Positions 1,750 through 15,675 of a stretch of 29,035 nucleotides of DNA are shown piece by piece. Below the pieces are notes generated by a model that ran no database searches, was not told the DNA's origin, and was given only the letters and a program-made list of their open reading frames with translations. Origin of the DNA: a virus. How positions within the stretch are numbered: the stretch's first letter is position 1; each line of letters starts with the position of its first letter. The stretch spans positions 1 to 29,035 of the IMG/VR virus record IMGVR_UViG_3300043568_001008. The stretch is one strand, 5' to 3'. The position numbers and the translations under genes are program-made.

Positions 1750-2211
1750 CTATTGTTTTGGTTTCTTTAAAAACCTATCAAATTCGGTTTTATATTGTTT
1801 AATCGATTCGTTCATCATATCATCTTCTTTCATACCCATTTCATCCATAGATCTTCTTTTCTTCATACGTAATGGACCACGAAGGTTTTTATATGTACCA
1901 AACATTCCTCTTGCTCGATCTACCTCACCTTTACCTGAATAATGTGAATGGAAATTAGGATAAGCACTATGTAATGTATCAAAATCATCATACGTTTCAT
2001 CATCATAGTCACCGTCAGGTAAATCTTGATATGTTTTATTTGAACTACCCGTCCAACCTATATTATCTTCACCGTGTTTTGCAAAATATTCTTCTTTTGA
2101 AGGTCCATCAAGTTCTTCATCCATATATCCTTCATTTTGTTCTTGAACTCTACTTTTATTTTCCACCAATCTTTTTAATTGGTCTTCTGTGATTTTAAAT
2201 TTCTTTCCCAT
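1750..2211 (-). CDS. Leader-tagged phage protein of unknown function
   Basis: A 153-residue hydrophilic protein. It starts MGKKFKITEDQLKRLVENK, a member of the ITE-x-QL-type leader family shared with genes at 7.3-15.7 kb; ITE and LVE resemble T4 prohead-protease sites. Residues about 25-90 are strongly acidic (EGYMDEELDG, DGDYDDETYDDFD), while residues about 95-120 are basic (MFGTYKNLRGPLRMKKRR). I recognise no enzyme domain. The acidic-then-basic layout and the leader suggest a small internal virion protein, which is inference. A clear terminator follows. The start is supported by the leader itself and by TATTTATA about 16 nt upstream, farther than usual. Confidence 0.82.
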   Translation of the reverse strand: MGKKFKITEDQLKRLVENKSRVQEQNEGYMDEELDGPSKEEYFAKHGEDNIGWTGSSNKTYQDLPDGDYDDETYDDFDTLHSAYPNFHSHYSGKGEVDRARGMFGTYKNLRGPLRMKKRRSMDEMGMKEDDMMNESIKQYKTEFDRFLKKPKQ

Positions 2212-2227
2212 TTTATCTGTGTTTCTA

Positions 2228-2235
2228 TATAAATA
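2228..2235 (-). promoter_or_regulatory. TATTTATA box before the 153-aa gene
   Basis: TATTTATA on the coding strand, 16 nt before the ATG at 2211, within the 60-bp divergent gap shared with the SGNH gene. This is the longest spacing among those that clearly belong to a leader-tagged gene. Confidence 0.5.
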
Positions 2236-2271
2236 CTTGGATTTTAGATATAGTTTAGTTATATTATATTC

Positions 2272-3030
2272 ATGCCGTTAATTAACTTAAATAAAAAATA
2301 TGATAAGTTTGTAACATTTGGTTGTTCTTATTCAAATGGTCACAAAATTGGGGAAACGGGATCATGGGGGTATCACTTATCAAAATTACTTAATTGTGAA
2401 CATTATAATTATGGATTTAATGGATCGTCAAATAACCTTATAATGGACAACGTGGTTAAATTTTGTGAGTCTAATGACACTAATAATGTGTGTTTAGGGG
2501 TTCAATGGAGTGAGTGGAGTCGTCGTGAATTTTGGGTTGAGTCTGAAATGAAATATAAGTCATTTAATGTTCCATCATTAGAACGACTTGAATCTATGAA
2601 AAATGATTCTCCCGAATTATATTTTTTTAGAGATAACCAAGATTTTTTTGTTTCACTATGGTTTGATTATAAAGAAAATATTTTAAGAACAATTCAATCA
2701 ATGATTTTAACCAAGAATTACCTTGACAATAAAAATATTGATTATATTATGTTTGAGGGGTTAGGATCTATATTAGATATGTTCTACCCAAATAAAGAAC
2801 ATATATCGGGACATAACGATTTAGTCCTATTATCAGATGAATTTAAATTAAAAATATTAAATGATAAGTGTTTTTTTAATAAATTAGGTGACATGAGAAC
2901 CCTTATGAAAATTCACCCACTATATGAAGATATAAATGATGGTCACCCTAATCCTAAATTTTTAGAGTGGTGGTGTTTAGAAATGTATAACGATATAAAA
3001 GAAAAATATGGAAAAACCAATAGTAATTAA
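2272..3030 (+). CDS. SGNH/GDSL-type hydrolase-like protein
   Basis: 252 residues. The N-terminal block KFVTFGCSYSNG places a serine in the GDS-like position, NYGFNGSSNN fits a second SGNH block, and DGHPNPKF near the C-terminus supplies a plausible Asp-x-His pair. SGNH hydrolases act on acyl esters of sugars or lipids; many large phages carry divergent versions whose substrates are unknown. It is the first gene of a rightward operon and overlaps the cupin start by 23 nt, so its role is probably tied to the sugar-nucleotide genes downstream, for example glycan acylation or deacylation. No signal peptide is visible. A second, unrelated-looking copy of this fold occurs at 13467-14189. Confidence 0.75.
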   Translation: MPLINLNKKYDKFVTFGCSYSNGHKIGETGSWGYHLSKLLNCEHYNYGFNGSSNNLIMDNVVKFCESNDTNNVCLGVQWSEWSRREFWVESEMKYKSFNVPSLERLESMKNDSPELYFFRDNQDFFVSLWFDYKENILRTIQSMILTKNYLDNKNIDYIMFEGLGSILDMFYPNKEHISGHNDLVLLSDEFKLKILNDKCFFNKLGDMRTLMKIHPLYEDINDGHPNPKFLEWWCLEMYNDIKEKYGKTNSN

Positions 3031-3394
3031 CGCATTAGAAACCGAAGGATGTTGTGTTCCAAAAGGTTGGGGCGACGAAATTATAATTGAGAATAATGAA
3101 ATGTATTGTGGTAAACTTTTAAGGTTTAAACAAGGTGCGAAGTTTTCAATGCATTATCATATGATTAAAGATGAAACTTGGTACGTGGATAAAGGTGAGT
3201 TTATCTACAGATGGATAGATACGGAAACGGCAGAAACGATTGAACAACAATTAGGGGTTGGAGATACAGTTAGACAAAGACCAGGTCAACCCCATCAATT
3301 GGAGGCATTAACAGACGGTGTGGTGTTTGAAGTATCCACAGAACATAAAGACACAGATTCATACAGAGTATGGAAAGGTGATAGTCAAAAGTAA
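3008..3394 (+). CDS. Cupin-fold protein, sugar-isomerase-like
   Basis: A 128-residue single-domain cupin. The first cupin motif is visible as SMHYHMIKDETWYVDKGEF (metal-ligand pattern HxH...E...G) and the second as GDTVRQRPGQPHQLEALTD (P..H). The set KGWGDEIIIENNEMYCGK, STEH and SYRVW is typical of small cupins found beside surface-polysaccharide genes. It may be an epimerase, isomerase or sugar-binding partner; the exact reaction cannot be read from the sequence. It overlaps the SGNH gene and is followed 3 nt later by the HldE-like kinase, so it is part of the same transcript. Confidence 0.8.
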   Translation: MEKPIVINALETEGCCVPKGWGDEIIIENNEMYCGKLLRFKQGAKFSMHYHMIKDETWYVDKGEFIYRWIDTETAETIEQQLGVGDTVRQRPGQPHQLEALTDGVVFEVSTEHKDTDSYRVWKGDSQK

Positions 3395-3397
3395 AAT

Positions 3398-4156
3398 ATG
3401 AAAATAACAGTAATAGGTGAATTTTGTACGGATATATTCGTATATGGTGAAACAAAGAGATTAAGTCCTGAAGCTCCCGTCCCTGTTTTTAATCCATTAT
3501 ATGTGGAAAGAAATTTTGGAATGGCTGGAAATGTAGTTGAAAATTTGAAGTCGTTAGATCAAGATGTAACGATTAAACATCTACATCAATTTCAACCAAT
3601 TAAGAAGACAAGATATGTGGATGATAAATCTAATCATATGTTTATTAGAGTTGATGAGGGTGAGGAAACAATTACACCTTTGGAATTGACTGATGATGTA
3701 ATTGATGAAATAAAAGAATCTGACGCAATTATTGTAAGTGATTACAATAAGGGATACTTGAACGAAAAAATATTATTAGAAGTTGCATATCATTCTCGTT
3801 TTATTGTCATGGATACAAAGAAAAAAATAGGTAATAAAGTTTTATCTAGTTTCAATTTTATTAAATTGAATGAATCTGAATTTTTAAAACACGATTTTGA
3901 TGCATGTTGGTCAAACAAAATATTGGTTACGTTAGGATCAAAAGGAGCAAAATATATGGATACCATATACCCGTCACCTGATCCTCGTGAAACTATTGAC
4001 GTTAGTGGTGCTGGTGATACATTTACAGCATCGTTTACCGTAAAATATTTGGAAACTAAAAACGTTGAGGAGTCAATAATTTACGCAAATAAAATGGCAT
4101 CAATCGTTGTACAGAAAAGAGGGGTGAGTGTACCAATAACAAGACAAAAAAAATAG
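3398..4156 (+). CDS. hldE-like: HldE-like D-glycero-D-manno-heptose-7-phosphate kinase (PfkB family)
   Basis: 252 residues, PfkB carbohydrate-kinase family. The N-terminus (GEFCTDIFVYGETKRLSPE followed by APVPVFNP) closely follows the substrate-binding segment of the kinase domain of HldE/RfaE, and DVSGAGDTFTASF near the C-terminus is the catalytic GAGD signature. HldE kinases phosphorylate heptose-7-phosphate at C1 on the way to ADP-heptose. The cytidylyltransferase-like second domain of bifunctional HldE is absent and the kinase is shorter than the usual ~315 residues. Neighbouring HldD supports the heptose assignment. The isomerase (GmhA), phosphatase (GmhB) and nucleotidyltransferase steps are not in this window. 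Confidence 0.85.
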   Translation: MKITVIGEFCTDIFVYGETKRLSPEAPVPVFNPLYVERNFGMAGNVVENLKSLDQDVTIKHLHQFQPIKKTRYVDDKSNHMFIRVDEGEETITPLELTDDVIDEIKESDAIIVSDYNKGYLNEKILLEVAYHSRFIVMDTKKKIGNKVLSSFNFIKLNESEFLKHDFDACWSNKILVTLGSKGAKYMDTIYPSPDPRETIDVSGAGDTFTASFTVKYLETKNVEESIIYANKMASIVVQKRGVSVPITRQKK

Positions 4157-4158
4157 TT

Positions 4159-4971
4159 ATGAAAATTTTAATAACAGGAACAAATGGGTTTATTGGGAAA
4201 AACTTATTAAATGAGTTAAAAGACCAACACGAAATATTAGAAATTAATGAAGATATTTTTAATGTTGCCGATTGGTATAATGAAATATATTTTAAATTAA
4301 ATAAGTTCGATCCTGAAGTGGTATTTCACGTTGGTGCGTGTTCAGATACATTAGAAACTGATGTTAATTACATGATGACACGGAACTTTGAATTTACCCG
4401 TAGAGTTGCAGAATGGTGTCAGTTACTGGATAAAAAGTTTATTTATTCCTCCTCTGCCGCCAATTATGGGACAAATGAAGAATATCCATCAAATCTTTAT
4501 GGATGGAGTAAATATGTTGCTGAACAGTACGTTGTTAAATGTGGTGGTATTGGTTTACGTTATTTTAACGTTTACGGTCCATTAGAAGACCAAAAAGGGA
4601 AGATGGCATCCGTGGCGTATCAAATGTTGGAAAAACAAAAAGAAGGTCAGGAAATCAAGTTATTCCCCAAAAAACCACAAAGAGACTTCGTCTATGTTAA
4701 AGATATTATAAATGCCAATTTATTTGCATTAGAAAACTATGACGATAATAGAGGTCAATGGTATGAAGTTGGCAGTGGTGACGCGAGAACATTTGAAGAT
4801 GTTTTGGATATATTGAAAATTGAATACACCTACCATAATGAAAAAGATATCCCTGAAGGATATCAATTTCATACTAAAAGTAATTCTGAAAATTGGATGG
4901 TCGGTTGGCAACCACAATTCAATTTAGAAAAAGGTCTTAAAGATTATTTAAATTTTTTAATATATAACTAA
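4159..4971 (+). CDS. hldD: ADP-glyceromanno-heptose 6-epimerase (HldD-like)
   Basis: 270 residues, short-chain dehydrogenase/epimerase family. GTNGFIGKNLL is the NAD(P)-binding Rossmann glycine motif. GACSDTLETDVNYMM matches the HldD-specific signature closely, YSSSAANYG supplies the catalytic Ser region, and YGWSKY is the YxxxK pair. RYFNVYGPLEDQKGKMASVA and QRDFVYVKD are also characteristic of HldD. The enzyme inverts C6 of ADP-D-glycero-D-manno-heptose to the L-glycero form used in LPS inner core. It begins 2 nt after the kinase stop and ends the operon; the next gene is convergent with a 1-nt gap, and no terminator hairpin is visible. Confidence 0.88.
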   Translation: MKILITGTNGFIGKNLLNELKDQHEILEINEDIFNVADWYNEIYFKLNKFDPEVVFHVGACSDTLETDVNYMMTRNFEFTRRVAEWCQLLDKKFIYSSSAANYGTNEEYPSNLYGWSKYVAEQYVVKCGGIGLRYFNVYGPLEDQKGKMASVAYQMLEKQKEGQEIKLFPKKPQRDFVYVKDIINANLFALENYDDNRGQWYEVGSGDARTFEDVLDILKIEYTYHNEKDIPEGYQFHTKSNSENWMVGWQPQFNLEKGLKDYLNFLIYN

Positions 4972-4972
4972 A

Positions 4973-5170
4973 TTAAGCAGTTGGTACGTGTCTCTCTAAA
5001 AGAACGTATTTACTTTTAAATTCAAGTTCTGATCCCGCTTCATTTGGGGTATACTCTTGATGTGTTTCCAACCAAGCAATAGCATCTTCTTTATTTGTAA
5101 TATGTTCAGTACCAAGTGCCGGAGTATTTTCTCCAGGTAAGGTGATTGCAATAAATGTTGTCTCTTCCAT
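4973..5170 (-). CDS. Small protein of unknown function
   Basis: 65 residues, MEETTFIAITLPGENTPAL at the start and YVLLERHVPTA at the end. It has no leader of either class, no signal peptide and no membrane segment; a helix-like middle (NKEDAIAWLETHQEY) is flanked by strand-like ends. I do not recognise it. It converges on hldD. A TATTTATA box lies 67 nt upstream (5237-5244), which would leave an unusually long leader compared with the other boxes. Confidence 0.65.
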   Translation of the reverse strand: MEETTFIAITLPGENTPALGTEHITNKEDAIAWLETHQEYTPNEAGSELEFKSKYVLLERHVPTA

Positions 5171-5236
5171 TGTTTTTTGTTTTAATAACTAATTTTATTA
5201 TCCAGTATTATCTAGTTTTATTAATAATAGTGCTTT

Positions 5237-5244
5237 TATAAATA
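5237..5244 (-). promoter_or_regulatory. TATTTATA box, remote from start
   Basis: TATTTATA on the minus strand, 67 nt before the ATG at 5170 and 15 bases beyond the stop of the lipoprotein gene. It is the only one of thirteen boxes that is not close to a start codon, so it either drives a leadered transcript or is a chance match. Confidence 0.35.
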
Positions 5245-5258
5245 GTATGAAATTTCAA

Positions 5259-6728
5259 TTAGTTATTTAATTTTGAATTATTTTTTATAGAATTATCCCA
5301 ATTATAAAATAAATCCCACCAATCGTTCACTCCTGTTATTCCATTATTATACCCTGGCATACTCTGCATCCAAAATATTAACCATTTATATTGAGCGTCC
5401 CTATTATAATCATAAGTTATTGTTGGTACACTTGGCATTGTTGATAAAGTCGCGTTAATCCATCTATCACTATTAATTAATTTTTTATTACCTCCTGTTG
5501 GTTTCCAATCTTCTATATCACTTAGTACCGGTGTTTTATTATTCCAATCATAATCTTTATTTGTATTTGGTGGTTTATGTGTACAACCTAAATGAGTGCT
5601 GTCCGCATAACCATCGGTAGGGTTACCATAACTTCCCCAAAATCTAGAATCTAAATGAGACATTTGAGCTTCAATTTGGTGTCCTCTATTGTGAATATTA
5701 TTCCCTGGATTAGTCTCTAAATTATAACCATAAACAACATATGTTTTATTAAATACCGGAAGATCATTAGACATCCTGTAACTATTTGAAACATCTCCAG
5801 TTGAGGGACTAGCCATATTTGATTCTGGTAAATTTAAAAAATTTGCTGCGGTGATACCGTTATTTAATGAATCTTTAACAACGGGATAACCCCAACTTAA
5901 AGGTCTTAATGAAAACCACACTTCTTTAACATCGCTATTCTCAACAAGAGATTGTAAATTTATTTTACTAAATACGTCAAAATAATCTGGTTGATAATCT
6001 GGAGTCAATTTATCTTGGGCGTTCATGTAAACATCTTGTTTGTCCTTTAATCCTCTTTTAAGTTCATATACGTTTATGTATTTTACTATTTTAAAACTAA
6101 CATTAGATGTTTGAGATGGGTTATTATAACCTCTAAATTTACTTCCTTCCTCAAGGCCAAACTTAGTTAATGACAAATAATCTATTGTTTTATTTTTTAA
6201 ATCTTGTATTGTTACAGGTGATGTAGAATTTAAACCCGGCGCTCGTTTTGTGTCAACATCTACACCATTTAAAGTAGGGTAATAATTAACCACCACAACA
6301 GGTACTATTATCCTTGCATTTGGATTTGAAGGGGTTGATAGGAATGGTAACGTTTTTAAATCAACGTTTTCAATTTCACTTACATATGTTGTATCTTTTA
6401 TTGAAAATTCTTTAAAAGATATATTAAAATAAGAATATCCCGATTTTGCACCGTAATATGTTTTATTATGTAAAAAAACAGTATTATTAGATGAAGTTAT
6501 AATGAGACTATCTAAACTAACGACCGTATCAAATCCATTTGAATAATGGGCGATTACTTGAGGTTGGTATTTCTTACTAATTGAAATAGTGTCTTGACTT
6601 ATTAACTTAATTGATAATAAATTTACTGTTCCACTCCCTGTTATGGGGGTCGGTTGTTTGGTCACTTCCATGGTTTTAGAACAACTAAACAACACAACAA
6701 TTAATAACAAATAATGTATTTTTTTCAT
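5259..6728 (-). CDS. Predicted secreted lipoprotein with HNRGHQ motif
   Basis: 489 residues. The N-terminus is a lipoprotein signal peptide: MKKIHYLLLIVVLFSC, with Cys16 as the likely lipidated residue after LFS. Residues about 35-115 look like a beta-sandwich (Big-like). The core contains RIIVPVVVVNYYP, LEEGSKFRGYNNPS, ESNMASPSTGDVSNS, HNRGHQIEAQMSH, CTHKPPNTNKDYDW and DIEDWKP. I recall this motif set from secreted bacterial proteins of unknown function, so this may be a gene taken from a host. His and Asp/Glu residues in the core suggest an enzyme, unproven. No capsid leader. It has a host-type promoter and so is probably expressed early or independently of the late genes; a surface role in the infected cell is plausible. 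Confidence 0.8.
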   Translation of the reverse strand: MKKIHYLLLIVVLFSCSKTMEVTKQPTPITGSGTVNLLSIKLISQDTISISKKYQPQVIAHYSNGFDTVVSLDSLIITSSNNTVFLHNKTYYGAKSGYSYFNISFKEFSIKDTTYVSEIENVDLKTLPFLSTPSNPNARIIVPVVVVNYYPTLNGVDVDTKRAPGLNSTSPVTIQDLKNKTIDYLSLTKFGLEEGSKFRGYNNPSQTSNVSFKIVKYINVYELKRGLKDKQDVYMNAQDKLTPDYQPDYFDVFSKINLQSLVENSDVKEVWFSLRPLSWGYPVVKDSLNNGITAANFLNLPESNMASPSTGDVSNSYRMSNDLPVFNKTYVVYGYNLETNPGNNIHNRGHQIEAQMSHLDSRFWGSYGNPTDGYADSTHLGCTHKPPNTNKDYDWNNKTPVLSDIEDWKPTGGNKKLINSDRWINATLSTMPSVPTITYDYNRDAQYKWLIFWMQSMPGYNNGITGVNDWWDLFYNWDNSIKNNSKLNN

Positions 6729-6748
6729 ATATTTTTTTATTTACAGGA

Positions 6749-6779
6749 CAAAGATATACATATTTATGAATATTCCAAA
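6749..6779 (-). promoter_or_regulatory. Bacteroidota-type sigma promoter for the lipoprotein gene
   Basis: On the minus strand TTTG (6776-6779), 19 bp, TATCTTTG (6749-6756). This matches the Bacteroidota consensus TTTG-N19-20-TAnnTTTG exactly. The ATG at 6728 lies 20 nt below the -7 box. The spacer contains the palindrome GAATATTC. Confidence 0.8.
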
Positions 6780-6791
6780 AAAATATTAAGA

Positions 6792-6799
6792 TATTTATA
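6792..6799 (+). promoter_or_regulatory. TATTTATA box before the glucosaminidase gene
   Basis: TATTTATA on the plus strand, 6 nt before the ATG at 6806. It is the only rightward gene with the box, and the box is flipped with it, which shows that orientation follows the gene. Confidence 0.65.
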
Positions 6800-6805
6800 A
6801 AATAG

Positions 6806-7348
6806 ATGAAAATAGTTAAAATTAAACAAAAAGACCTTGAGAGGATGATTAATGAACAATTAACCAATCCCATACAAATTGGTAAATATGTGTATGATAC
6901 ATATAAGAAACTGACCTCCTCCCCTGAAGAAAAGAAGAAACCCCAAGAAGGTCCTTTACCATTTTCCGAGAAAAACTTAGGACAAGAACTTAAGAAACAA
7001 GGAGTTATGTATCCCGACGTGGCAATGGCTCAATCTATGTTAGAGACGGGTTATTTTAAAAGTGGTATATTTTTGGATAATAATAATCTATTTGGTATGA
7101 AACACCCAAGACAAAGACAAACACTATCTAAAGGACCAAATAGAGGACATGCAAGTTTTGAAAATTGGCAAGATTCGGTTAAAGATTATAAAATGTGGCA
7201 AGATTACAATAAGTTATCTAACTTATCTAAAGACCAATATATTGCAAAGTTAAATCGTATTTATTGTATGCCACCATCTTGTGGATCAAACAATTACGCA
7301 AAAAAAGTTCAAAGTTTGTTATCAAGAGCATTAAGTTCTCTTAGTTAA
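6806..7348 (+). CDS. Leader-tagged glucosaminidase-domain (FlgJ/LytD-like) cell-wall hydrolase
   Basis: 180 residues. Residues 1-18 (MKIVKIKQKDLERMINEQ) are a divergent form of the ITE-QL leader, ending in INE. A proline- and lysine-rich linker (residues 36-52) leads to a glucosaminidase domain (about 53-180): AQSMLETGYFKS with Glu80 as the likely catalytic acid, NNNLFGMK, and a repeated-helix tail containing GSNNYAKKV. This family cleaves N-acetylglucosaminyl bonds in peptidoglycan. Small size and lack of a signal peptide fit a virion-carried lysin for entry rather than a secreted enzyme. It converges with the gene at 7345, sharing 4 nt at the stop codons. Confidence 0.88.
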   Translation: MKIVKIKQKDLERMINEQLTNPIQIGKYVYDTYKKLTSSPEEKKKPQEGPLPFSEKNLGQELKKQGVMYPDVAMAQSMLETGYFKSGIFLDNNNLFGMKHPRQRQTLSKGPNRGHASFENWQDSVKDYKMWQDYNKLSNLSKDQYIAKLNRIYCMPPSCGSNNYAKKVQSLLSRALSSLS

Positions 7349-8769
7349 AGGTAATTTCCAAATCTTTTAAAGAATTCAGCTGGCATTTCACTATGTCCTA
7401 TATTAAGTAATACTGCATTACCTAACATTATTTTTGCCGCTTTTTTCTGACATTTAACAACCTCAGGAAATCCCCAATTACTTGGGTTATAAATCATGTG
7501 TACTCTTTTATCGTTAATGTGATATCTAAGTGAATCTTCTTTTGTTGTTGGGTCAATTAATCCAACAAACTCATATTCCCCACTTGCTGGCCACGCTTTA
7601 AGTCCACCTTGACTAAACCCTAAAATAGATTTTATAGGGGTTTTACCTAACATTCTCTTTGCCTGTGTTATATCACTTGTAAATGGTAATACTAAAATTG
7701 TTTTTTTATCTTTTAATTCTTGTGGCATTTGACTTAACATCCATTTAGGTGTTGCATAACCAACTCCACCAAAAACAACACAAGCAGTATTATCAACAGG
7801 TTTATCTGGCGTACTTAAAATACCCCCCTCAATTCTTTTCTCAAATGGTGGATTATTAGGATTTGGTTTGTCTTCGTTAATCTGTATTGTCTTTGGATCT
7901 CTATCTACATGGAATTTTTTTACATACTTTTTAAAGTCCGTCAATCCACCTCTTTTTTGAACCCATCTAACGGGATTTATATCTCTAAACCCAAATCTAC
8001 CTCCACCATCGGATAAATAAACAATACCTGTTGCAATTGAATTTAATTTAATCCCGATTTCTTGAATGACGTTAGTTTTTTGTTCTGTAGTCTCCCACGT
8101 TTCTAAAAAATTAACAATATTCTCCCTCCACAAAATATCTTTAATTTGAATATTATTTACCACCGTCTCATTCCACATACTTTCTCTATCTTCTCTATTT
8201 TTTTTAATATCGGTAAAATATTCTCTTATTTCTTTTGCATGTTCTTTAACTAAACTATCAATCAATCTATAATATTCAATTAAATCTTTTGACGGTCCTG
8301 AAGGTTCATTCATATGTCTAAACTTTTCACGAACCTCATATTCATGTTCTAATTTATTTTGAAAATCATAAGGAAAACTTCTAATGTTTACCCATCTTCT
8401 ACCTGTTTCATCGGGAGCACTCATAATATCTGTTGGTGCATCGAATTGTAAATCTCCTTCGATTTGATATAATATACCTCCTTCGGTTTGTACCCCTTTC
8501 ATGTTTTTAACCAATTCTTTATCCATAAATCTAAACGTGGATAATGATTTTCTTGTACCAACAATCTTACTCATATCATCAATACCGTGAACATCCCCGA
8601 CGTGGAATGTTGTAACTCTTTGTTTACCCCAAATGTAATTAACTAAGGATGGTGTTAATGGAACATCCATTCTAACAATATGAGATTGTACATTAGCTAA
8701 CCACTTCAGTTCATTTAACTGTTGTTGTTCAATAAGTTTTAATTGTGATTCTGTAACCTGAAGCTTCAT
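7345..8769 (-). CDS. Leader-tagged two-part protein: ART-like N-part and alpha/beta-hydrolase-like C-part
   Basis: 474 residues. The leader MKLQVTESQLKLIEQ has VTE and LIE sites. Residues 53-130 (TTFHVGDVHGID, GTRKSLSTFRF, DIMSAPDETGRRW) recall a family in T4-like phages; His56 and Ser75-Ser77 are laid out like the 173-aa ART-like protein next door, so an ADP-ribosyltransferase-like fold is a tentative idea. Residues about 335-474 resemble an alpha/beta hydrolase: ACVVFGGVGYA, nucleophile elbow GFSQGG (Ser386), GLIDPT (Asp406) and NIGHSEMP (His459) make a plausible triad. Substrate unknown. The gene sits 12 nt from its upstream neighbour, and that gap is filled by TATTTATA plus 4 nt. Confidence 0.72.
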   Translation of the reverse strand: MKLQVTESQLKLIEQQQLNELKWLANVQSHIVRMDVPLTPSLVNYIWGKQRVTTFHVGDVHGIDDMSKIVGTRKSLSTFRFMDKELVKNMKGVQTEGGILYQIEGDLQFDAPTDIMSAPDETGRRWVNIRSFPYDFQNKLEHEYEVREKFRHMNEPSGPSKDLIEYYRLIDSLVKEHAKEIREYFTDIKKNREDRESMWNETVVNNIQIKDILWRENIVNFLETWETTEQKTNVIQEIGIKLNSIATGIVYLSDGGGRFGFRDINPVRWVQKRGGLTDFKKYVKKFHVDRDPKTIQINEDKPNPNNPPFEKRIEGGILSTPDKPVDNTACVVFGGVGYATPKWMLSQMPQELKDKKTILVLPFTSDITQAKRMLGKTPIKSILGFSQGGLKAWPASGEYEFVGLIDPTTKEDSLRYHINDKRVHMIYNPSNWGFPEVVKCQKKAAKIMLGNAVLLNIGHSEMPAEFFKRFGNYL

Positions 8770-8773
8770 TAGA

Positions 8774-8781
8774 TATAAATA
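8774..8781 (-). promoter_or_regulatory. TATTTATA box in a 12-nt intergenic gap
   Basis: Coding strand TATTTATA then TCTA then the ATG at 8769. The box directly abuts the stop codon of the upstream gene (8782-8784), so the whole intergenic gap is box plus 4 nt. Confidence 0.65.
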
Positions 8782-9303
8782 TTACTTAATTCCAGATAGA
8801 TACTCATCTATCTTCTTTTGTACCTCGGGATCTTGACCTGTATAAATGATGTTTGTAATGTATTGTCTCAATGGATATATTCTATCTGTCAATACTCTTT
8901 CCTCAACCTCAGGATTTTTACGTGTACGTGGAACTGGATCCATCCATGCCTTGTTCGCAATTGTTCCATAATCAAAAGGAACCACCCTATAACGTGATTT
9001 AAGACGACTTCTATCTGCAACGAAGATTACGTTCAACATATCAGGTTTAATACGAGGACCGTCACCAGAATTACCAATAGACCCATCTGGTATAAAGTTC
9101 TTATCACGAGTAAATGAAACCATCGTTTTATGTTTGGATTGTTTTAATGTTCTATCTAAATTTAAAACCTCCTCGTATTGTTTAGATCCTTTTAACATAT
9201 TACTATTCATAATACCTAAAGCACGTTCCTCAGTGGTATGATGATAGATTGGGATTGATACCATATCTCTTAACTTCTCCAATAATATGTCTTGTAGTTT
9301 CAT
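8782..9303 (-). CDS. Leader-tagged ADP-ribosyltransferase/2'-phosphotransferase-fold-like protein
   Basis: 173 residues. The leader MKLQDILLEKLRD belongs to the MKLxDIxxE class, with LLE as a possible prohead-protease site. The body shows IYHHTTEERALGIM (His21/His22), MVSFTRDKNF (Ser63, Phe64) and PEVEERVLTD (Glu132-Glu135). This H ... S-F/T ... ExE order is what mono-ADP-ribosyltransferases and Tpt1/KptA-like folds show. I recall close relatives in T4-like phages of Proteobacteria whose first residues resemble the T4 capsid-targeting sequence. If active it could modify a host protein or nucleic acid on entry, as T4 Alt does; that is inference. The ATG overlaps the preceding small gene's stop codon by one base (TAATG). 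Confidence 0.72.
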   Translation of the reverse strand: MKLQDILLEKLRDMVSIPIYHHTTEERALGIMNSNMLKGSKQYEEVLNLDRTLKQSKHKTMVSFTRDKNFIPDGSIGNSGDGPRIKPDMLNVIFVADRSRLKSRYRVVPFDYGTIANKAWMDPVPRTRKNPEVEERVLTDRIYPLRQYITNIIYTGQDPEVQKKIDEYLSGIK

Positions 9304-9413: not shown

Positions 9414-9423
9414 ATATTTTGTT

Positions 9424-10068
9424 TTAGTCTTTTGAAAATAAATTATCTAACATTGCAATGTCTTCGTCTTCAGTTACGTCTTGTGCGGGTGGTGGTATGG
9501 CATTAGGTGTTAATGCTTTATATGTTTCAGGTCCAACAACACCATCTACTTTAAGACTATTCTTTTTTTGGAAGTCGGTTACTTTTTGTTTTGTTATTTT
9601 ACCGAAATAACCCGTTGGGTTTTTAAAATCTAATAATGTTTGTAGTTCTTTAACTCCTTGTGTTTTACAACCAAATTTAAGAAGACTACCATTAGTAATA
9701 TCTATTATTTGATTTGCACATGGCTTTGGTGTTTGTGGTGCTTTCTCTGTCCATTTTTCAGTTACACTATCATACGAATCTCCATCTTCAAAAACTAATT
9801 TAAAATCTGTTGTTCCTGAAGGGACAATTTCACCTGCAGTTACGGCTTTCTCATCTTTAGTTATATAATAACAATCACCTGAAGAGTAAAACCAAACTTT
9901 GTCACCATTAGATAGTATAATTTCTTTACCCTTACCAGATCGATTTGTTTTAACGTTATCCCCCCATTGATTTATAATCAATTTAAAAAATTGATTGTCT
10001 TCTTGATTAACAGTTTGTTCCACCATTTTCTTTAATTGACTCTCGGTCATTCTTATAACTTTCTTCAT
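9424..10068 (-). CDS. Leader-tagged peptidoglycan-binding protein
   Basis: 214 residues. Leader MKKVIRMTESQLKKMVEQ. Residues about 25-108 form a beta-rich region of unknown type (SNGDKVWFYSSGDCYYIT, FKLVFEDGDSYD). A Thr/Pro linker follows, then a PG_binding_1-type domain at about 128-187: GSLLKFGCKTQGVKELQTLL, GYFGKITKQKV, FQKKNSLKVDGVVGPETYKAL, the usual three-helix repeat that binds peptidoglycan. The C-terminal tail is acidic. No catalytic domain is seen. Together with the leader this suggests a virion component that contacts cell wall during entry. Confidence 0.87.
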   Translation of the reverse strand: MKKVIRMTESQLKKMVEQTVNQEDNQFFKLIINQWGDNVKTNRSGKGKEIILSNGDKVWFYSSGDCYYITKDEKAVTAGEIVPSGTTDFKLVFEDGDSYDSVTEKWTEKAPQTPKPCANQIIDITNGSLLKFGCKTQGVKELQTLLDFKNPTGYFGKITKQKVTDFQKKNSLKVDGVVGPETYKALTPNAIPPPAQDVTEDEDIAMLDNLFSKD

Positions 10069-10072
10069 ATCT

Positions 10073-10080
10073 TATAAATA
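10073..10080 (-). promoter_or_regulatory. TATTTATA box in a 12-nt intergenic gap
   Basis: TATTTATA then AGAT then the ATG at 10068; the box abuts the stop codon of the 547-aa gene (10081-10083). Confidence 0.65.
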
Positions 10081-11724
10081 TTAAATATTTTTTAATGTAT
10101 TCATTAATGATAATTTGGATTTGTTAAAATTTATTTTATCTTTATGTACAGGTTCTTTAGGTGTTTCTCTTTCCGGATAATCACCCAATGGTTTTATTTC
10201 ATTTTTCTCGACACCACCTTTCAATGCATTCTCTAATAATTTATCATATTGACCTTCTTTAAGGGTATGTGGTATACGAATCATTCCCAAACCGTAATTA
10301 TTAGTTTTAATAAATTCATTTTTTATATTATCACTTTCGTACAATATATTATAATTCATTTGTCTAGTATATTCTGATTTACCAAACGTAGGTTCAAAAT
10401 GTTGTTTTCCATCATATTCAATAAGAACATTATATTCGGGTAGATAGAAATCAAATTTTTGATTACCAAGTTCAGGATAATTCTTTTCTTTTTCAAATTT
10501 TATATCTTTCTTTCTTAATAGTTCACCAATATGTCTTTCATTTCTTGATTCCTGACATATCGGACAACCTTGTCCTGTAGAATGATTAGCTGGAGTTTGC
10601 CAAAACATTCCATGTTCTTCATCATTAGGTCCTTTAACGTGACATTCAATAGGAATTTTTGTATTTGCATTAACAAATTCTTTGTCAATATTTGGATAAG
10701 TATATTTAATAGATCTGTTAGACTGTGAGGATTCAAACGTTCTTTTGTAATTATTTAAACTATTAACCCTATCACATTCTTTACATTTAATTGACCCAAA
10801 TTTTTCAGTACTTTTCCAAATTGATGATGGAGATTTTATCACGACAGGATATGGAGTTTTCCCGTGTAAAGTACAACCAAGAGTAATTGGTGAATCACCA
10901 CCGATATAATCTGATAATAAAACAAATCTGTTACCATATAGTTCATGAATTTTATCCATGAATTTTTTTTCTTTAACCGATATTCTATTACATTCTGAAC
11001 ATAAAGGTACACCTGTGTAAAAATATTTACCCTTTACTCTTGTGACTTCTTCATTATGTTTTAAACATTTTATTTTAGTATTTCTTGATGGATTTGAATA
11101 TTCCATACCCTTCCAATCATACCAACTTATTGGAATGTGGTATAATTTCATTCTCTCTTTAACTTTTCTTATAAACTCCGCACGAGAAAGATTGGTTGGT
11201 TCTTGTTTAACAATTCCTTGTTCGTCTTTACATTTTCTACAACCAACATTTTGATATATGTGAAGTTGTGCGTTTTTTATACTTTGTTTACCATGGGGTT
11301 TTCCATCGGAACCAATTTTAGGACAATAAAAATCAAATTCATTATTAATACCTGTATATCTTCTCAAACCTGGTCTATTGTAGATATATAACGGATTTCC
11401 ATTTTCATCCTTCCATATATCTTTTACCTTACTATAAAAATCATTTTTAGTTGATTTAACATTACTTTGACTATCATCTTTCTTACACTCACCACATCCA
11501 TTTGGACCTGTACGACCTTTCAATAGATATTCAACAAGTGCAGGGAAATCAACATTATGTTTTTTACAATGAACATTTACCGTAGAGTTTTTTGTAAAGT
11601 TTTCCTGATTACCGAAATCATAAAGACTACCATTACGATAAGGAAAAAGTTCTTTCATCTTCAATAGAAAATCTTCCTTTGTTCTTGATTCGGTTCTTTC
11701 AGATATAATATCTAATAATTTCAT
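10081..11724 (-). CDS. Leader-tagged zinc-ribbon/Vsr-like nuclease (547 aa)
   Basis: Begins MKLLDIISERTES (MKLxDIxxE leader, ISE site). Several Cys/His modules follow: VHCKKHNVDF with GCGECKK, VGCRKCKDE, IKCLKHNEEV with PLCSECNR, LGCTLHGKT with IKCKECDR, and IECHVKGPN with GCPICQES. These resemble the zinc-binding DNA-recognition repeats that accompany phage Vsr/PD-(D/E)xK endonucleases. The nuclease domain lies at about residues 400-490: FDFYLPEYNVLIEYDGKQHF starts at 424, with Asp425, Glu436, Asp438 and His442 as candidate active-site residues. Freestanding homing nucleases of this type are common in phages; the capsid-type leader here is what is odd. The last 60 residues are Lys/Pro-rich. 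Confidence 0.82.
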   Translation of the reverse strand: MKLLDIISERTESRTKEDFLLKMKELFPYRNGSLYDFGNQENFTKNSTVNVHCKKHNVDFPALVEYLLKGRTGPNGCGECKKDDSQSNVKSTKNDFYSKVKDIWKDENGNPLYIYNRPGLRRYTGINNEFDFYCPKIGSDGKPHGKQSIKNAQLHIYQNVGCRKCKDEQGIVKQEPTNLSRAEFIRKVKERMKLYHIPISWYDWKGMEYSNPSRNTKIKCLKHNEEVTRVKGKYFYTGVPLCSECNRISVKEKKFMDKIHELYGNRFVLLSDYIGGDSPITLGCTLHGKTPYPVVIKSPSSIWKSTEKFGSIKCKECDRVNSLNNYKRTFESSQSNRSIKYTYPNIDKEFVNANTKIPIECHVKGPNDEEHGMFWQTPANHSTGQGCPICQESRNERHIGELLRKKDIKFEKEKNYPELGNQKFDFYLPEYNVLIEYDGKQHFEPTFGKSEYTRQMNYNILYESDNIKNEFIKTNNYGLGMIRIPHTLKEGQYDKLLENALKGGVEKNEIKPLGDYPERETPKEPVHKDKINFNKSKLSLMNTLKNI

Positions 11725-11728
11725 TATG

Positions 11729-11736
11729 TATAAATA
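11729..11736 (-). promoter_or_regulatory. TATTTATA box in a 12-nt intergenic gap
   Basis: TATTTATA then CATA then the ATG at 11724; the box abuts the stop of the 370-aa nuclease gene (11737). Confidence 0.65.
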
Positions 11737-12849
11737 TTAAACTTTAATAGTTGTGTCTCTCCATCCTTTATCAATTGGATATTTCGTACTTAAATACAAT
11801 TGGTTATTACTATCAAGACCCTTCATTAATTCTTCTTCTATGTTTTCTTTATCAAGATAACCAATACGAATAAGTTTTATGTTTTTTGCTTTTGCATATT
11901 CATTTTTTTCCCTATCGTTAAAAACTTGAGTTATGTAATCTTGGCTAATACGTGATTTTCTAAAGTGGTAAGCACCGTCAAATTCAATCAATGTATTTTG
12001 ATCTGGCAAATAAAAATCAAATGTCAATTTACGACATCCTTTTTTACTTATTCCTTTTTTACTTTTATATGAGATACAATCGTCATATTTTTTAAATGGT
12101 ATTAACTTAATATTTTTTTCAAACAATACCCGACCAATTGTTTTTTCTCCCTTCGATTCTTTACACCAAGGACATCCACGACCATTTAAATGACTATTTG
12201 GTGTTTGAGGAAAATCTCCACGTGTTGGGCTGTGTATTGGACAGGTTATCATCACTTTTATCTTTCCATTTACATAAATCACATTATCATATGTATATTT
12301 TGGTGTTCCGTCCTTATGTTGGTGTTCTTTCGTTGCTTGTGCTTTTTGAATAAACTCTTTGGTGTTAGATTTAGACGCATTTATAGCACATTTATCACAT
12401 CCAGCACCTTGTAGGTGATTAGATGGATATTGGGGAAAATCTCCATGTATTGGGCAAGTTATCATCACATTCACAAATGATCCACCATATATGACATTAT
12501 CATATGTATACTTTGGTATTTTTTTTCCATCATCATCATATAAAAAATGTATCTTTTGTGCTTTTTGAATAAACTCTTTGGCGTTAGATTTTCTACGTAT
12601 AGAATCACATTTTTTACATCCCTCTTTACCTGCTAAATGATTGTTCGGTGTTTGGGGAAAATCCCCATGTAACGGACAGGTAATGTTTACGGTTTTATTT
12701 AAACCATTCATAACCACATTATCATAAGTATATTTGTCACCGTGGACTTCCTTCGATTGTTTAACAAATTCATCCTTAGTCATTAGTTTACGACCACCAG
12801 CCTCATTCATATCAACAACACTCTCAAATATAATATCTAATAGTTTCAT
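11737..12849 (-). CDS. Leader-tagged zinc-ribbon/Vsr-like nuclease (370 aa)
   Basis: The start at 12849 is chosen over an in-frame ATG at 12888 because it gives MKLLDIIFESVVD, nearly the same leader as the neighbouring nuclease, and is preceded by TATTTATA. Three repeats follow, each with KYTYDNV, then ITCPxHGDFPQxPxxHLxGxGC and a CxxC/CxxxK end: a DUF723-like zinc-binding repeat. The nuclease domain has FDFYLPDQNTLIEFDGAYHF from residue 277, with Asp278, Glu289, Asp291 and His295. It shares the fold and order of the 547-aa gene but has tidier repeats, so the two are diverged paralogues. The product is a likely DNA-nicking or -cutting enzyme; its site is unknown. Confidence 0.83.
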   Translation of the reverse strand: MKLLDIIFESVVDMNEAGGRKLMTKDEFVKQSKEVHGDKYTYDNVVMNGLNKTVNITCPLHGDFPQTPNNHLAGKEGCKKCDSIRRKSNAKEFIQKAQKIHFLYDDDGKKIPKYTYDNVIYGGSFVNVMITCPIHGDFPQYPSNHLQGAGCDKCAINASKSNTKEFIQKAQATKEHQHKDGTPKYTYDNVIYVNGKIKVMITCPIHSPTRGDFPQTPNSHLNGRGCPWCKESKGEKTIGRVLFEKNIKLIPFKKYDDCISYKSKKGISKKGCRKLTFDFYLPDQNTLIEFDGAYHFRKSRISQDYITQVFNDREKNEYAKAKNIKLIRIGYLDKENIEEELMKGLDSNNQLYLSTKYPIDKGWRDTTIKV

Positions 12850-12856
12850 ATACACA

Positions 12857-12864
12857 TATAAATA
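12857..12864 (-). promoter_or_regulatory. TATTTATA box before the 370-aa nuclease gene
   Basis: TATTTATA then TGTGTAT then the ATG at 12849 (7 nt spacing). The 104 bp farther upstream hold GC-richer imperfect hairpins (around 12910-12960) ending in T-runs on the minus strand, perhaps a weak terminator of the gene at 12969. Confidence 0.55.
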
Positions 12865-12968
12865 TCCCACAAATATTAACGGACACAAAAAGAGAGAGAC
12901 AAATTTCGAACGGGGGTTCCGGCGTGTTAAAACAAAAAACCGTGAACGGGGTTATCGGAGGTTAGAAA

Positions 12969-13415
12969 TTAAGAACTGATCATATCAACACCGAAGTTAT
13001 CAAACTTCCTTTTATAGACAAATGATATCTCATGACCCTTATGCATCATAAATCTATCCAGATCGGTATCCCGTTGTGTTTCAAAGTTATGGAGGGTATA
13101 TTTCACCTTACCAACAACATCAAACATATAAGTAATCTCACCACCATTCTTAAGTTGTTTCTTAGTGGGATAGTCAATAACGATTGTGACGGTGTTTAAA
13201 GGGGGTAATTCGTAGGATACATCTAGGGGAGGGTAATTATCACCATGATATATCTGAACCAAGCCACGACCCTTAGACAGGGCCTTATAGACATTTACCA
13301 TCTTCTTAATCATCTTATGATCTTCTGGTGAACCATTATAACCATCTGGAACGTTACCATAGTATTTAACCCTTGGTTCATTAGTATTCTCGGTTAACAG
13401 GTCCATTAGTTTCAT
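12969..13415 (-). CDS. Leader-tagged protein of unknown function
   Basis: 148 residues from the ATG at 13415, chosen because it gives MKLMDLLTENTNE (MKLxDIxxE leader, LTE site) 3 nt after TATTTATA; an in-frame ATG 24 nt upstream would read through that box. The body has YGNVPDGYNGSPEDHK, a likely helix MIKKMVNVYKALSKG, then beta-rich segments (TVTIVIDYPTK, ITYMFDVVGKVKYTL) and ends with DNFGVDMISS. No domain recognised. It follows a copy of the 39-bp repeat. Confidence 0.78.
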   Translation of the reverse strand: MKLMDLLTENTNEPRVKYYGNVPDGYNGSPEDHKMIKKMVNVYKALSKGRGLVQIYHGDNYPPLDVSYELPPLNTVTIVIDYPTKKQLKNGGEITYMFDVVGKVKYTLHNFETQRDTDLDRFMMHKGHEISFVYKRKFDNFGVDMISS

Positions 13416-13418
13416 ATG

Positions 13419-13457
13419 TATAAATATATCGTATACCAAGATCCCCTAGGGTGGTAT
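13419..13457. repeat. 39-bp direct repeat, copy A, with TATTTATA and imperfect hairpin
   Basis: Begins with TATAAATA on the plus strand (the promoter-like box of the gene starting at 13415) and continues through GTATACCAAGA to CCTAGGGTGGTAT. It matches 14195-14233 with two mismatches. ATACCA and TGGTAT arms flank the palindrome CCTAGG, so it could form a hairpin or bind a dimer. The two copies flank the SGNH gene. Confidence 0.8.
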
Positions 13458-13466
13458 TATTTGTCT

Positions 13467-14189
13467 TTATATTATATTATTTTTTAAAATGTAATCATGT
13501 AAAATACCACCAAGAACAATATGTCCATTATTATTAAGATGCATATCATGGTAAGTTAATTTATTTTTTATGGACCATGTTAACATAGAATACTCATTAT
13601 CCACATTAAAGAAATTTCTTTTAACCAATTCTTTGTCGTTTTTTATATAGGGCCAATATAAAAATATGATTTTATTACCGGTACTTTCTACATATGACTT
13701 TAATGTATCTACATTATACAAAAGATGTTTAAAGTGTTCTTCATCATCATAGACATACATAAGATACGTTTCATACATTTTACTCAGTTCTTTATATTCC
13801 TTATCATGTATGTCGATGTTTTTAATTGGAACATCATATCCCGAAGTTACCATAATATCGTCTTTATCATATTTTATTACATTATCAATACTAATGTTAT
13901 GTATTATATGATTAATAATATTAGGTTGATAGTCTAACCAACAATTATATGAACTATGATACGTGCCCCATCTATGCGTATATGTCAATTGACATATGAA
14001 CAAGGTATCTTTTCTTTTATGAATGTTAATGTCATCATATATTTTCTTAGTTATTGAAACGTTACTTTGTCCCGCAACCGCAATGACCTCAACATCCATG
14101 TTGTAATGATTTTTTAATATCGACCCATAATCTACGCCATCATCAATCGAATAAGAACATCCCGACACTAAAATTTTTTTATTTACCAT
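13467..14189 (-). CDS. SGNH/GDSL-like protein in a repeat-flanked cassette
   Basis: 240 residues from the ATG at 14189, 5 nt after TATTTATA; a longer in-frame reading from 14342 would run through the box and the repeat and overlap the upstream gene. KKILVSGCSYSIDDG holds the GDS-like serine block, VAGQSNVS a second block, and YHDMHLNNNGHIVLGG a C-terminal Asp/His block. FICQLTYTHRWGT and YWPYIKNDK lie between. Large phages carry several such proteins of unknown substrate. It carries neither leader class, unlike almost all other genes behind a TATTTATA box. The gene lies exactly between two 39-bp direct repeats, suggesting insertion as a unit. Confidence 0.75.
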   Translation of the reverse strand: MVNKKILVSGCSYSIDDGVDYGSILKNHYNMDVEVIAVAGQSNVSITKKIYDDINIHKRKDTLFICQLTYTHRWGTYHSSYNCWLDYQPNIINHIIHNISIDNVIKYDKDDIMVTSGYDVPIKNIDIHDKEYKELSKMYETYLMYVYDDEEHFKHLLYNVDTLKSYVESTGNKIIFLYWPYIKNDKELVKRNFFNVDNEYSMLTWSIKNKLTYHDMHLNNNGHIVLGGILHDYILKNNII

Positions 14190-14194
14190 TACAT

Positions 14195-14233
14195 TATAAA
14201 TATATCGTATACCAAGAGTCCCTAGGGTGGTAT
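14195..14233. repeat. 39-bp direct repeat, copy B
   Basis: Second copy of the repeat at 13419-13457 (two mismatches). It contains TATTTATA for the gene starting at 14189 (box 14195-14202) and the TATACCA ... CCCTAGGG ... TGGTATA hairpin, and ends three bases before the stop codon of the upstream gene. Confidence 0.8.
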
Positions 14234-14235
14234 AA

Positions 14236-14757
14236 TTAATTAACGGGAGGAAATGAGTTAGGTTTTGTATAACGATAGAATATCTGTCTGAAGGAGTTAT
14301 TACCACCTTTATGTATATAATCGTTAACCTTCTCAATATCAATGTTAGATTCCTTAAATGTGGTCATTATTTTATTCTTAGCGGTTCCCATATCATTTCC
14401 TTGTGAAACGGACTCAGCACGGTTAATAACGTCATTATTACATCCTGCACCACGACTGGTGAAACCCATCCACGCTTTACCATCGGAACTCGGAGAAATG
14501 GTACAAGACCAATTAACGGTCATACCATTCACTTTAACATCCACCTTAGACACCATAGGGTTCATACCACCTTCATATAACTCTTTGAGTTTATTACCAA
14601 CGATAACATTCATATTACCAATAACCTTACCACCTGAACCTTGGAATGCGTGTAATTCATCACAGTCATTTGCGGTATATGTACCACTTACAACAACCGT
14701 GGATGATTGTTCCGTTATTATACGTCTAAGTTGTTGTTCTGATATTACGATCTTCAT
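14236..14757 (-). CDS. Leader-tagged protein of unknown function
   Basis: 173 residues from the ATG at 14757, 4 nt after TATTTATA; a longer in-frame reading would cross a terminator hairpin. MKIVISEQQLRRIITEQSS is a textbook leader of the ITE-QL class with two sites, ISE and ITE, nine residues apart. The body begins TVVVSGTYTANDCDELHAF, followed by GKVIGNMNVIVGNKLKELY and VKVNGMTVNWSCTISP, a beta-sheet pattern with three cysteines, then a helical C-terminus ending in PNSFPPVN. No family recognised. Removal of the leader at IITE would leave a compact ~155-residue domain, which is inference. Confidence 0.8.
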   Translation of the reverse strand: MKIVISEQQLRRIITEQSSTVVVSGTYTANDCDELHAFQGSGGKVIGNMNVIVGNKLKELYEGGMNPMVSKVDVKVNGMTVNWSCTISPSSDGKAWMGFTSRGAGCNNDVINRAESVSQGNDMGTAKNKIMTTFKESNIDIEKVNDYIHKGGNNSFRQIFYRYTKPNSFPPVN

Positions 14758-14761
14758 GTTA

Positions 14762-14769
14762 TATAAATA
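14762..14769 (-). promoter_or_regulatory. TATTTATA box before the 173-aa gene
   Basis: TATTTATA then TAAC then the ATG at 14757, immediately downstream of a terminator on the same strand, so the gene must be transcribed from here. Confidence 0.7.
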
Positions 14770-14771
14770 CA

Positions 14772-14806
14772 ACAAAAAAGGGATATGAGTAGCGAATTCA
14801 TATCCC
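14772..14806 (-). terminator. Rho-independent terminator of the 67-aa gene
   Basis: Minus-strand stem GGGATATGA / TCATATCCC (9 bp, 9-nt loop) followed by TTTTTTG. The 54 bp between it and the gene at 14861 also hold a small CGGGT/ACCCG hairpin. Confidence 0.82.
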
Positions 14807-14860
14807 AACGGAACGTTAACCATTCCGGTCCTAAGTCGGGTCTTCAAACCCGAGGTATCT

Positions 14861-15064
14861 TTATTTGAGTTTCTGTAAGTTGTGGATGATGTTGTTAATT
14901 AACCTCACCTTATGTCCTGCTTCCCCTTGGATAAACATAAACTCCTTCTGCATGGTCAACCAATCGATTTGTTCGGGTATACCGTAACCTTCCTCATCGG
15001 TGTATCTAATTGATCTTTCTCCAATGACTGTCTTTAGTTGAGATTCTGTAAGGATGATTTTCAT
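14861..15064 (-). CDS. Small leader-tagged protein
   Basis: 67 residues. MKIILTESQLKTVIGERS is the leader (sites LTE and IGE). Only about 50 residues remain: YTDEEGYGIPEQIDWL, then a helical MQKEFMFIQGEAGHK and VRLINNIIHNLQKLK. No domain recognised. Small leader-tagged proteins are what one expects of T4-style internal proteins, so this is a good candidate for a packaged peptide. It is followed by a terminator. Confidence 0.75.
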   Translation of the reverse strand: MKIILTESQLKTVIGERSIRYTDEEGYGIPEQIDWLTMQKEFMFIQGEAGHKVRLINNIIHNLQKLK

Positions 15065-15067
15065 ATG

Positions 15068-15075
15068 TATAAATA
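15068..15075 (-). promoter_or_regulatory. TATTTATA box before the 67-aa gene
   Basis: TATTTATA then CAT then the ATG at 15064 (3 nt), inside a 15-nt gap between genes. Confidence 0.65.
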
Positions 15076-15079
15076 TGTC

Positions 15080-15664
15080 TTAATAATGAACGTCATCATC
15101 ACTTGGGATATAGTCATGTCCCAAATTGGATAGTTTTTTATATAAGTCGGGATTTCTTTTCTTGAGGTCATTCATATCCTTATATTGTGAAGAAGCACGA
15201 TACATTAAACGATCTAAATATTTTTGTATATCTTTGTTATAGTATGGACTTTCGTCTCTATTACCAATATAAGTTCCTTGTACCACAGGATCAAAATCGT
15301 TATTTGGAAATAAATCTTTTAATAAGTTGTTTCTTAGGGCATATTGGTATGCTGTACCATTTTCTATTTCGAAGTCCGACACGGTTACATATTTACTTGC
15401 AAGTTCTCTTACCTTTTCATCGGTTAAATCCTCATTATATTTTTTTCTATTTGTGAATACATCATCAACCAATTTATTACCCCTTAGAAAATTCCATAGT
15501 TTCTTATGTTTCAATGCAAATTGTCTTGGATTAGGATAGTTAACCGCAAGTTCCTTAGCTTTCTTTAATCTTCTCTTATATAGACTTTCAGGTAACGAAG
15601 AACTACCAAACTTATGTTCGGTTATAATATGATTATATTGAGATTCCGTTATGAGGATTTTCAT
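15080..15664 (-). CDS. Leader-tagged helical-repeat protein, DNA-binding-like
   Basis: 194 residues. Leader MKILITESQYNHIITEHK with sites ITE and ITE. The body has two or three related helical modules: residues ~33-70 (AKELAVNYPNPRQFALKH ... LVDDVF) and ~80-120 (VRELASKYVTVSDFEIEN ... YQYALRNNLLKDLF), with a looser third near the C-terminus. The pattern A-x-x-[YN]-x-[ST/NP]-x-x-x-F ... Y/L-x-x-[AL]-x-x ... L-x-x-[LVD] recalls DNA-binding repeats found in phage homing-endonuclease-associated proteins; no nuclease domain is present. DNA binding is inference. It could be a packaged nucleoid-type protein. Confidence 0.75.
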   Translation of the reverse strand: MKILITESQYNHIITEHKFGSSSLPESLYKRRLKKAKELAVNYPNPRQFALKHKKLWNFLRGNKLVDDVFTNRKKYNEDLTDEKVRELASKYVTVSDFEIENGTAYQYALRNNLLKDLFPNNDFDPVVQGTYIGNRDESPYYNKDIQKYLDRLMYRASSQYKDMNDLKKRNPDLYKKLSNLGHDYIPSDDDVHY

Positions 15665-15667
15665 ATG

Positions 15668-15675
15668 TATAAATA
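15668..15675 (-). promoter_or_regulatory. TATTTATA box before the 194-aa gene
   Basis: TATTTATA then CAT then the ATG at 15664, immediately after a terminator on the same strand, so transcription of the gene must begin here. Confidence 0.7.

Follow-up and report, generated by a model that had tools for sequence, protein, structure and literature searches.

Candidate capsid-targeting leaders on many unrelated proteins of large T4-like phages

Introduction

The window analyzed here, 29,035 b of viral DNA, is the complete IMG/VR record IMGVR_UViG_3300043568_001008. Many of its genes encode proteins that begin with one of two short leaders, A and B, joined to bodies that are mostly unrelated. Judging from the sequence, we consider it highly probable that the leaders are modular, exchangeable capsid-targeting propeptides of the T4 type, belonging to a large T4-like phage and removed by its gp21-type protease after the proteins are loaded into the prohead. 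Part of a longer contig, G001 (66,855 b), matches the window at 99.997% identity, so that the window is a fragment. G001 has further leader genes outside the window, with starts such as MKKYIFTESQIKKIIDNQIVE/, MKKVILTEEQIKRMVDNLVINE/, MEKIIITENQVKNILDKVLME/, MKLLDILNE/ and MKLMDILLE/, where the slash marks the predicted cut point after the terminal Glu. Two relatives, G053 (335,630 b) and G054 (105,374 b), were reached via the ADP-ribosyltransferase (ART)-like protein listed below and share collinear blocks with the window at 72–97% nucleotide identity.

Leaders of the Window

A preliminary description of this DNA reported seven starts with leader A and four with leader B, and all eleven are present. 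Together with a probable twelfth they are as follows; genes are named below by the position of their start.

1651–1689, minus strand: further leader MNFNNIFEELLLE/, the probable twelfth; 615-residue gene extending past the window edge
2161–2211, minus strand: leader A, MGKKFKITEDQLKRLVE/; gene 1750–2211, body without assigned function
6806–6856, plus strand: divergent leader A, MKIVKIKQKDLERMINE/; gene 6806–7348, glucosaminidase (PF01832)
8710–8769, minus strand: leader A, MKLQVTESQLKLIEQQQLNE/; gene 7345–8769, without family match
9277–9303, minus strand: leader B, MKLQDILLE/; gene 8782–9303, weak Tox-ART-HYD1 match
10018–10068, minus strand: leader A, MKKVIRMTESQLKKMVE/; gene 9424–10068, PG_binding_1
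11698–11724, minus strand: leader B, MKLLDIISE/; gene 10081–11724, endonuclease-like, PHROG 559
12823–12849, minus strand: leader B, MKLLDIIFE/; gene 11737–12849, endonuclease-like, PHROG 559
13389–13415, minus strand: leader B, MKLMDLLTE/; gene 12969–13415, body without assigned function
14710–14757, minus strand: leader A, MKIVISEQQLRRIITE/; gene 14236–14757, body without assigned function
15017–15064, minus strand: leader A, MKIILTESQLKTVIGE/; gene 14861–15064, 67 residues
15617–15664, minus strand: leader A, MKILITESQYNHIITE/; gene 15080–15664, PHROG 20046

Strict patterns recover six leader A and four leader B starts in the open reading frames (ORFs) of the window, and 2000 shuffles of the same ORFs give means of 0.049 and 0.001, respectively. 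The bodies had been said to share nothing. This is mostly so, the exception being the proteins of 11724 and 12849, which are homologous nucleases. The ART-like assignment of the 9303 protein is weak: the family match (E = 0.016) fails the cut-off, and an AlphaFold model built without an alignment, with a pLDDT of 34, did not confirm the fold. PDB sequence searches with two cargo proteins found no match.

The Leader End Motif

The eleven leaders, in which (I/L/V/M)xE tripeptides had originally been noticed, all end in [ILVM]xE, and ten of them in the stricter [IL]xE; the exception is 10068, which reads MVE. In the window's lineage the middle residue varies (IGE, IDE, INE; ISE, ILE), and I/L and E are constant. 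Orthologs of the 8769 protein all have LNE or LDE at the leader end, and those of the 15064 protein have IDE and INE. Three orthologs of the 10068 protein have a second site, ending INE/QS (TINE) or VNE/QS (TVNE).

A position profile was based on 229 non-redundant class A leader proteins drawn from all loci. Counted from the motif Gln, Glu peaks at +6/+7 and at +11, and I or L stands two positions ahead of it; past that Glu the profile is nearly featureless, with no strong residue preference. The tripeptide [IL]xE occurs in 66% of these leaders versus 21.5% in shuffles (z about 19). The Asp version, [ILVM]xD, stands at 10.9% in both (z = 0), and the reversed motif Ex[ILVM] is depleted. Residue 9 is Glu in 27 of 39 members of class B, whose definition made no reference to Glu, and in 19 of 22 when the promoter described below is present. 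Among 122 proteins a short N-terminal extension is common to unrelated bodies, and conservation is confined to the first 20 residues or so.

Selection on the Peptide and Leader Swapping

Within the leader motif the codons for T, E, S, Q and L are used much as synonymous codons are used in the bodies of the same genes, with Ile codons somewhat shifted. Because the leader codons follow this background, it is the peptide that is conserved, rather than a recently copied DNA cassette.

Leaders and bodies are exchanged. Bodies change under kept leaders in the window's lineage, and vice versa: in G053 the 2211 leader sits on a different 63-residue body, and the 14757 leader is retained on a replaced body. 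Conversely, the glucosaminidase body in a relative (locus L379) bears MKLVISESQLKKIIE/ instead of the window's MKIVKIKQKDLERMINE/. For a broader swap test, mature bodies were compared by BLAST with all ORFs to find homologs with leaders of another class. In 19 of 33 cases an [ILVM]xE falls no more than three residues from the aligned junction, versus 1–8 of 33 (mean 10%) for control windows. An apparent leader family, MPVRGIELTEEQ... and LGAPLRSVELEDE, was rejected, being a larger conserved protein whose start had been called wrongly; without the nine of the 33 rows that belong to the non-leader family LGAPLRSVELEDE, the count is 18 of 24. One body family has seven different leaders, all ending xxE/[ST]G[IL]R, with the junctions LIKE/SGIRDIN, MIKE/SGIRDIN, LILE/SGIRGIK, LISE/SGLRDIN, IISE/SGIRNIR, LINE/SGIRDIN and LLKE/TGLRDIN.

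A Late-Type Promoter

In the window, 11 of the 12 leader genes have TATTTAT in the 25 nt upstream of their ATG, versus one of the 29 remaining ORFs (Fisher p = 4e-8); 9303 is the only leader gene without it. The corresponding figures in G053 are 14 of 21 and 52 of 410 (p = 5e-8). The longer box, TATTTATA, also lies immediately 5′ of the genes for gp17 (terminase) and gp20 (portal) in G053, so that leader genes and head genes share a promoter, a feature absent from the preliminary description. TATTTAT resembles the T4 late box, TATAAATA. Examples in the window are as follows.

15668–15675, minus strand: T4-late-promoter-like box TATTTATA, 3 nt before the ATG of 15664
15068–15075, minus strand: TATTTATA box before the ATG of 15064
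13419–13426, minus strand: TATTTATA box before the ATG of 13415

The sole non-leader gene of the window with TATTTATA directly before its start is 13467–14190 (minus strand), which begins MVNKKILVSGCSYS.

Head Module and Protease

A prohead protease and a scaffold, whose absence from the genome the preliminary description would have counted against prohead targeting, are present in close relatives of the window: the protease in both G053 and G054, and the scaffold in G053. The protease, of family S77, has the conserved (N/D)HP His and GxSSRG Ser motifs. It is part of a head module at 117.8–126.7 kb of G053, where gp17, gp20, gp21, a gp22-like acidic scaffold and gp23 follow in T4 order; the gp22-type scaffold was identified by position and composition. 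The major capsid protein (MCP) of G053 has the predicted cut site SYLINE/AAVADASGSFET, and LINE/, LLSE/ or IVSE/ stands at the expected place of the MCP. Of 40 leader contigs, 15 have a match to PF03420 (Peptidase_S77, T4 gp21), including all 13 that bear gp23.

Two observations concern individual head genes. In G014 the gp21 protease (L200:17461–19308 = G014:77461–79308) has an in-frame insertion of about 390 residues directly after the catalytic His motif, which from its sequence looks like an intein (boundaries ELNHPS/CHTGDVD...HWTGN/SS, the slashes here marking the insertion). The portal genes of G014 (1287 residues) and G032 (938 residues) are far above the roughly 600 residues of their relatives.

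The MCP is related to those of Flavobacterium phage immuto and Rhodothermus phage RM378. This kinship suggests a host among the Bacteroidota, despite the best MCP match being a Microcystis phage. By its MCP, immuto is one of the nearest annotated isolates. Its head module is related, and it has a leader type of its own, SEQFRRMQKLAGIITE/, with leader proteins at 25061 and 111675 of NC_055915; no clear leader A is found in it.

Distribution and Further Leader Classes

Leaders were located elsewhere by an anchored DNA pattern for M-K-x-h-h-T-E-x-Q-L. It occurs in at least 120 stretches of viral contigs, and a codon-permuted control pattern occurs 17 times in the whole collection. In 257 Gb of bacterial genomes it has 111 matches, about as many as chance predicts; of 30 such matches, eight have the end motif and one the promoter, versus 48 and 38 of 86 viral loci. 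A tblastn search of a phage collection with a 22-residue consensus leader gave no match, and tblastn with two proteins of the window and one conserved leader protein showed no cultured phage with leader A.

The two leaders first described are both real, but two is an understatement, since relatives have at least four more types that end in the same motif. When N-termini were clustered within single genomes, a cluster of 31 proteins appeared in G019, and further classes emerged. These include MKKVIRLTESDLxRIVKRVIxE/, a type (E)E-x-x-RIL-x-LHE-x-ATK-x-x-YLxE/, MNLQExIRKVLREE and LNExxRxxxIMGLxLxE/; they were assigned by eye, with the [IL]xE end in most listed members. About 21 leader genes were counted in G053, nearly all of them at 15–80 kb. 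Near the major capsid gene, most large leader genomes have a conserved leader-bearing protein (YMFFSNLEQMxRQC) whose leaders differ between phages (L153:10113–10604 in G019, also in G021, G041, G053:127536 and G024).

Cargo Proteins

Pfam matches were surveyed in 122 leader proteins of at least 140 residues. Most have none. The most frequent matches are phage lysozyme (six), LysM (four), PG_binding_1 (three), glucosaminidase (two) and cell-wall hydrolase (two), with single matches to M23, alpha/beta hydrolase and InPase/polyvalent; one leader protein matches ribonucleotide reductase. An 836-residue leader protein of G007 (L174:5570–8077) has an InPase polyvalent domain and a cREC receiver domain, and its PHROGs are DarB-like antirestriction and minor head protein. 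From these matches it is likely an injected anti-restriction protein. InPase polyvalent proteins have been proposed to be packaged and injected (PMC5512222).

Also in the window, at 3008–4971, genes for cupin-like, carbohydrate-kinase-like and NAD-dependent epimerase-like proteins lie side by side, an arrangement suggestive of phage-borne nucleotide-sugar synthesis.

Proposed Mechanism and Alternatives

Prohead targeting followed by removal of the leader had been proposed in the preliminary description, and the end motif, the stop of conservation behind it, the swaps and the shared late promoter all support this proposal. From these sequence features we infer scaffold binding, cleavage, packaging and injection, as follows. 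The leader genes, like the head genes and together with them, would be transcribed late from TATTTATA promoters. Through its N-terminal part the leader would then bind the prohead core, by analogy probably the gp22-type scaffold, and the protein would thereby become enclosed in the prohead. A cut by the S77 (gp21-type) protease would come next, after the terminal [IL]xE, as predicted for the major capsid protein (LINE/A). The mature cargo would remain in the head and probably enter the host with the DNA.

Several findings weigh against this scheme. Sixty-one of the 229 class A leaders (27%) have no [ILVM]xE at +5 to +13, among them a paralogous family of about 105 residues that starts MKYLITES. 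The window's own contig has no head module. Among contigs of at least 60 kb, S77 is found in 14 of 28 with leaders and in 4 of 17 controls, a difference not significant alone (p = 0.12). Finally, several of the cargo proteins are peptidoglycan enzymes, which are unusual for T4 heads and the least expected cargo.

The MKYLITES[KQ] paralogs occur in tandem (G021:1186–3500, G019:31641–34180); their homology extends past the start and through part of the body, and they are without the usual [IL]xE site. Some site-less class A proteins may be paralogs whose start has merged into the protein. The co-occurrence with S77 is weak because many contigs are fragments. Both the window and its 66.8-kb extension, G001, in which no S77 was found, are fragments themselves. 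The S77-negative contig G018 (214 kb) is collinear with G019 but lacks the head-module stretch, and in six large S77-negative contigs the terminase gene that adjoins the head module is missing as well. The absence of S77 therefore reflects fragmentation or cannot be judged.

The alternative that survives best, though we consider it unlikely, is that the leaders target proteins to the virion and stay uncut, the terminal [IL]xE being part of a docking helix. It would accommodate the class A leaders that have no site at the expected place, and targeting and processing are separable in T4 IPIII (PMC9026906). A docking helix does not account well for a specificity for Glu only, at two discrete positions and without Asp enrichment, or for a site that is conserved between unrelated leaders on the same body.

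The leaders might also address other places, such as the tail or baseplate, the membrane or the cell wall. Cargo such as the lysozyme, LysM and glucosaminidase proteins would fit an address of this kind, and about one-tenth of leader proteins above 140 residues match peptidoglycan families. The same leaders are found on nucleases, DHH-type proteins and polyvalent proteins, and we know of no tail pathway with an N-terminus cut at [IL]xE; we consider another address very improbable. Least credible of all is a mobile promoter-plus-start cassette, selected for transcription or translation initiation with the peptide as a by-product: TATTTATA does lie a few nt before the ATG of nearly all leader genes in the window, but the cassette is largely refuted by the randomized synonymous codons of the leaders, the non-leader late genes gp17 and gp20 have the same promoter and no leader, and the conserved stretch reaches as far as the protease site.

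Relation to Known Systems

The capsid-targeting sequences (CTSs) of the T4 proteins IPI, IPII, IPIII and Alt, which gp21 cuts, are the closest parallel to capsid-targeting propeptides of the kind proposed here. Like the leaders, they are short N-terminal propeptides that end in L/I-x-E, with Glu rather than Asp, and the two systems are alike in their unrelated bodies, late expression and a head module in T4 order with an S77 protease. Leader B presumably has the layout of the T4 CTS, MKTYQEFIxE; leader A and the other classes are unlike it. The targeting sequences of T4 internal proteins are 10–19 residues long, and gp21 cuts after L/I-x-E (PMC9026906). Targeting of IPIII depends on residues 4 and 7 and its cutting on 8 and 10; with Asp at position 10, where the targeting sequence ends, it is not cut (PMC9026906). 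In Alt the cut follows ITE-6 (PMC5694885). The systems differ in number and cargo: about four proteins are targeted in T4 (PMC9026906), whereas the leader genes of G053 and the N-terminal cluster of G019 are several times as many, and the cargo, unlike that of T4, includes peptidoglycan enzymes and nucleases.

The phages phiKZ, 201phi2-1 and SPN3US, with a gp21-like protease, also have many processed ejection proteins and a Glu-specific cut, and SPN3US gp53 and gp54 have identical N-termini (PMC5694885). The propeptides of phiKZ and SPN3US are mostly long, in SPN3US often above 100 residues, and are cut at S/A-x-E or A-x-E. In contrast, the leaders are about 9–25 residues long and end in I/L-x-E; the P3 residue here is I or L, so that the phiKZ-type motif is not found. 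A third parallel is offered by the injected proteins of the P1 DarB-like and polyvalent families, which the 836-residue G007 protein matches. To our knowledge, none of the encapsidation signals described for such proteins equals these leaders.

A literature search, with subscription journals largely outside its coverage, found no earlier description of the leaders and no experiment on these phages. The principle is known from T4; the families of leaders, and how many of them a genome carries, appear to be undescribed.

Significance

We lean, with some reserve, towards a broader reading: in a large clade of T4-like jumbo phages, possibly phages of Bacteroidota, several unrelated and freely exchanged cleavable head tags would load dozens of proteins per virion, and the tag would serve as a genomic barcode for injected effectors. 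The cargo in such a clade would comprise nucleases, ADP-ribosyltransferase-like proteins, peptidoglycan enzymes, anti-restriction proteins and unknown proteins. If this is true, the sequence by itself would reveal which proteins the uncultured phages of a large group inject, and hundreds of 'hypothetical proteins' would become candidate host-takeover or anti-defense factors. The T4 capsid-targeting sequence would then be one of several interchangeable address tags, and the others would stand ready as new tags with which to load T4-like heads with proteins.

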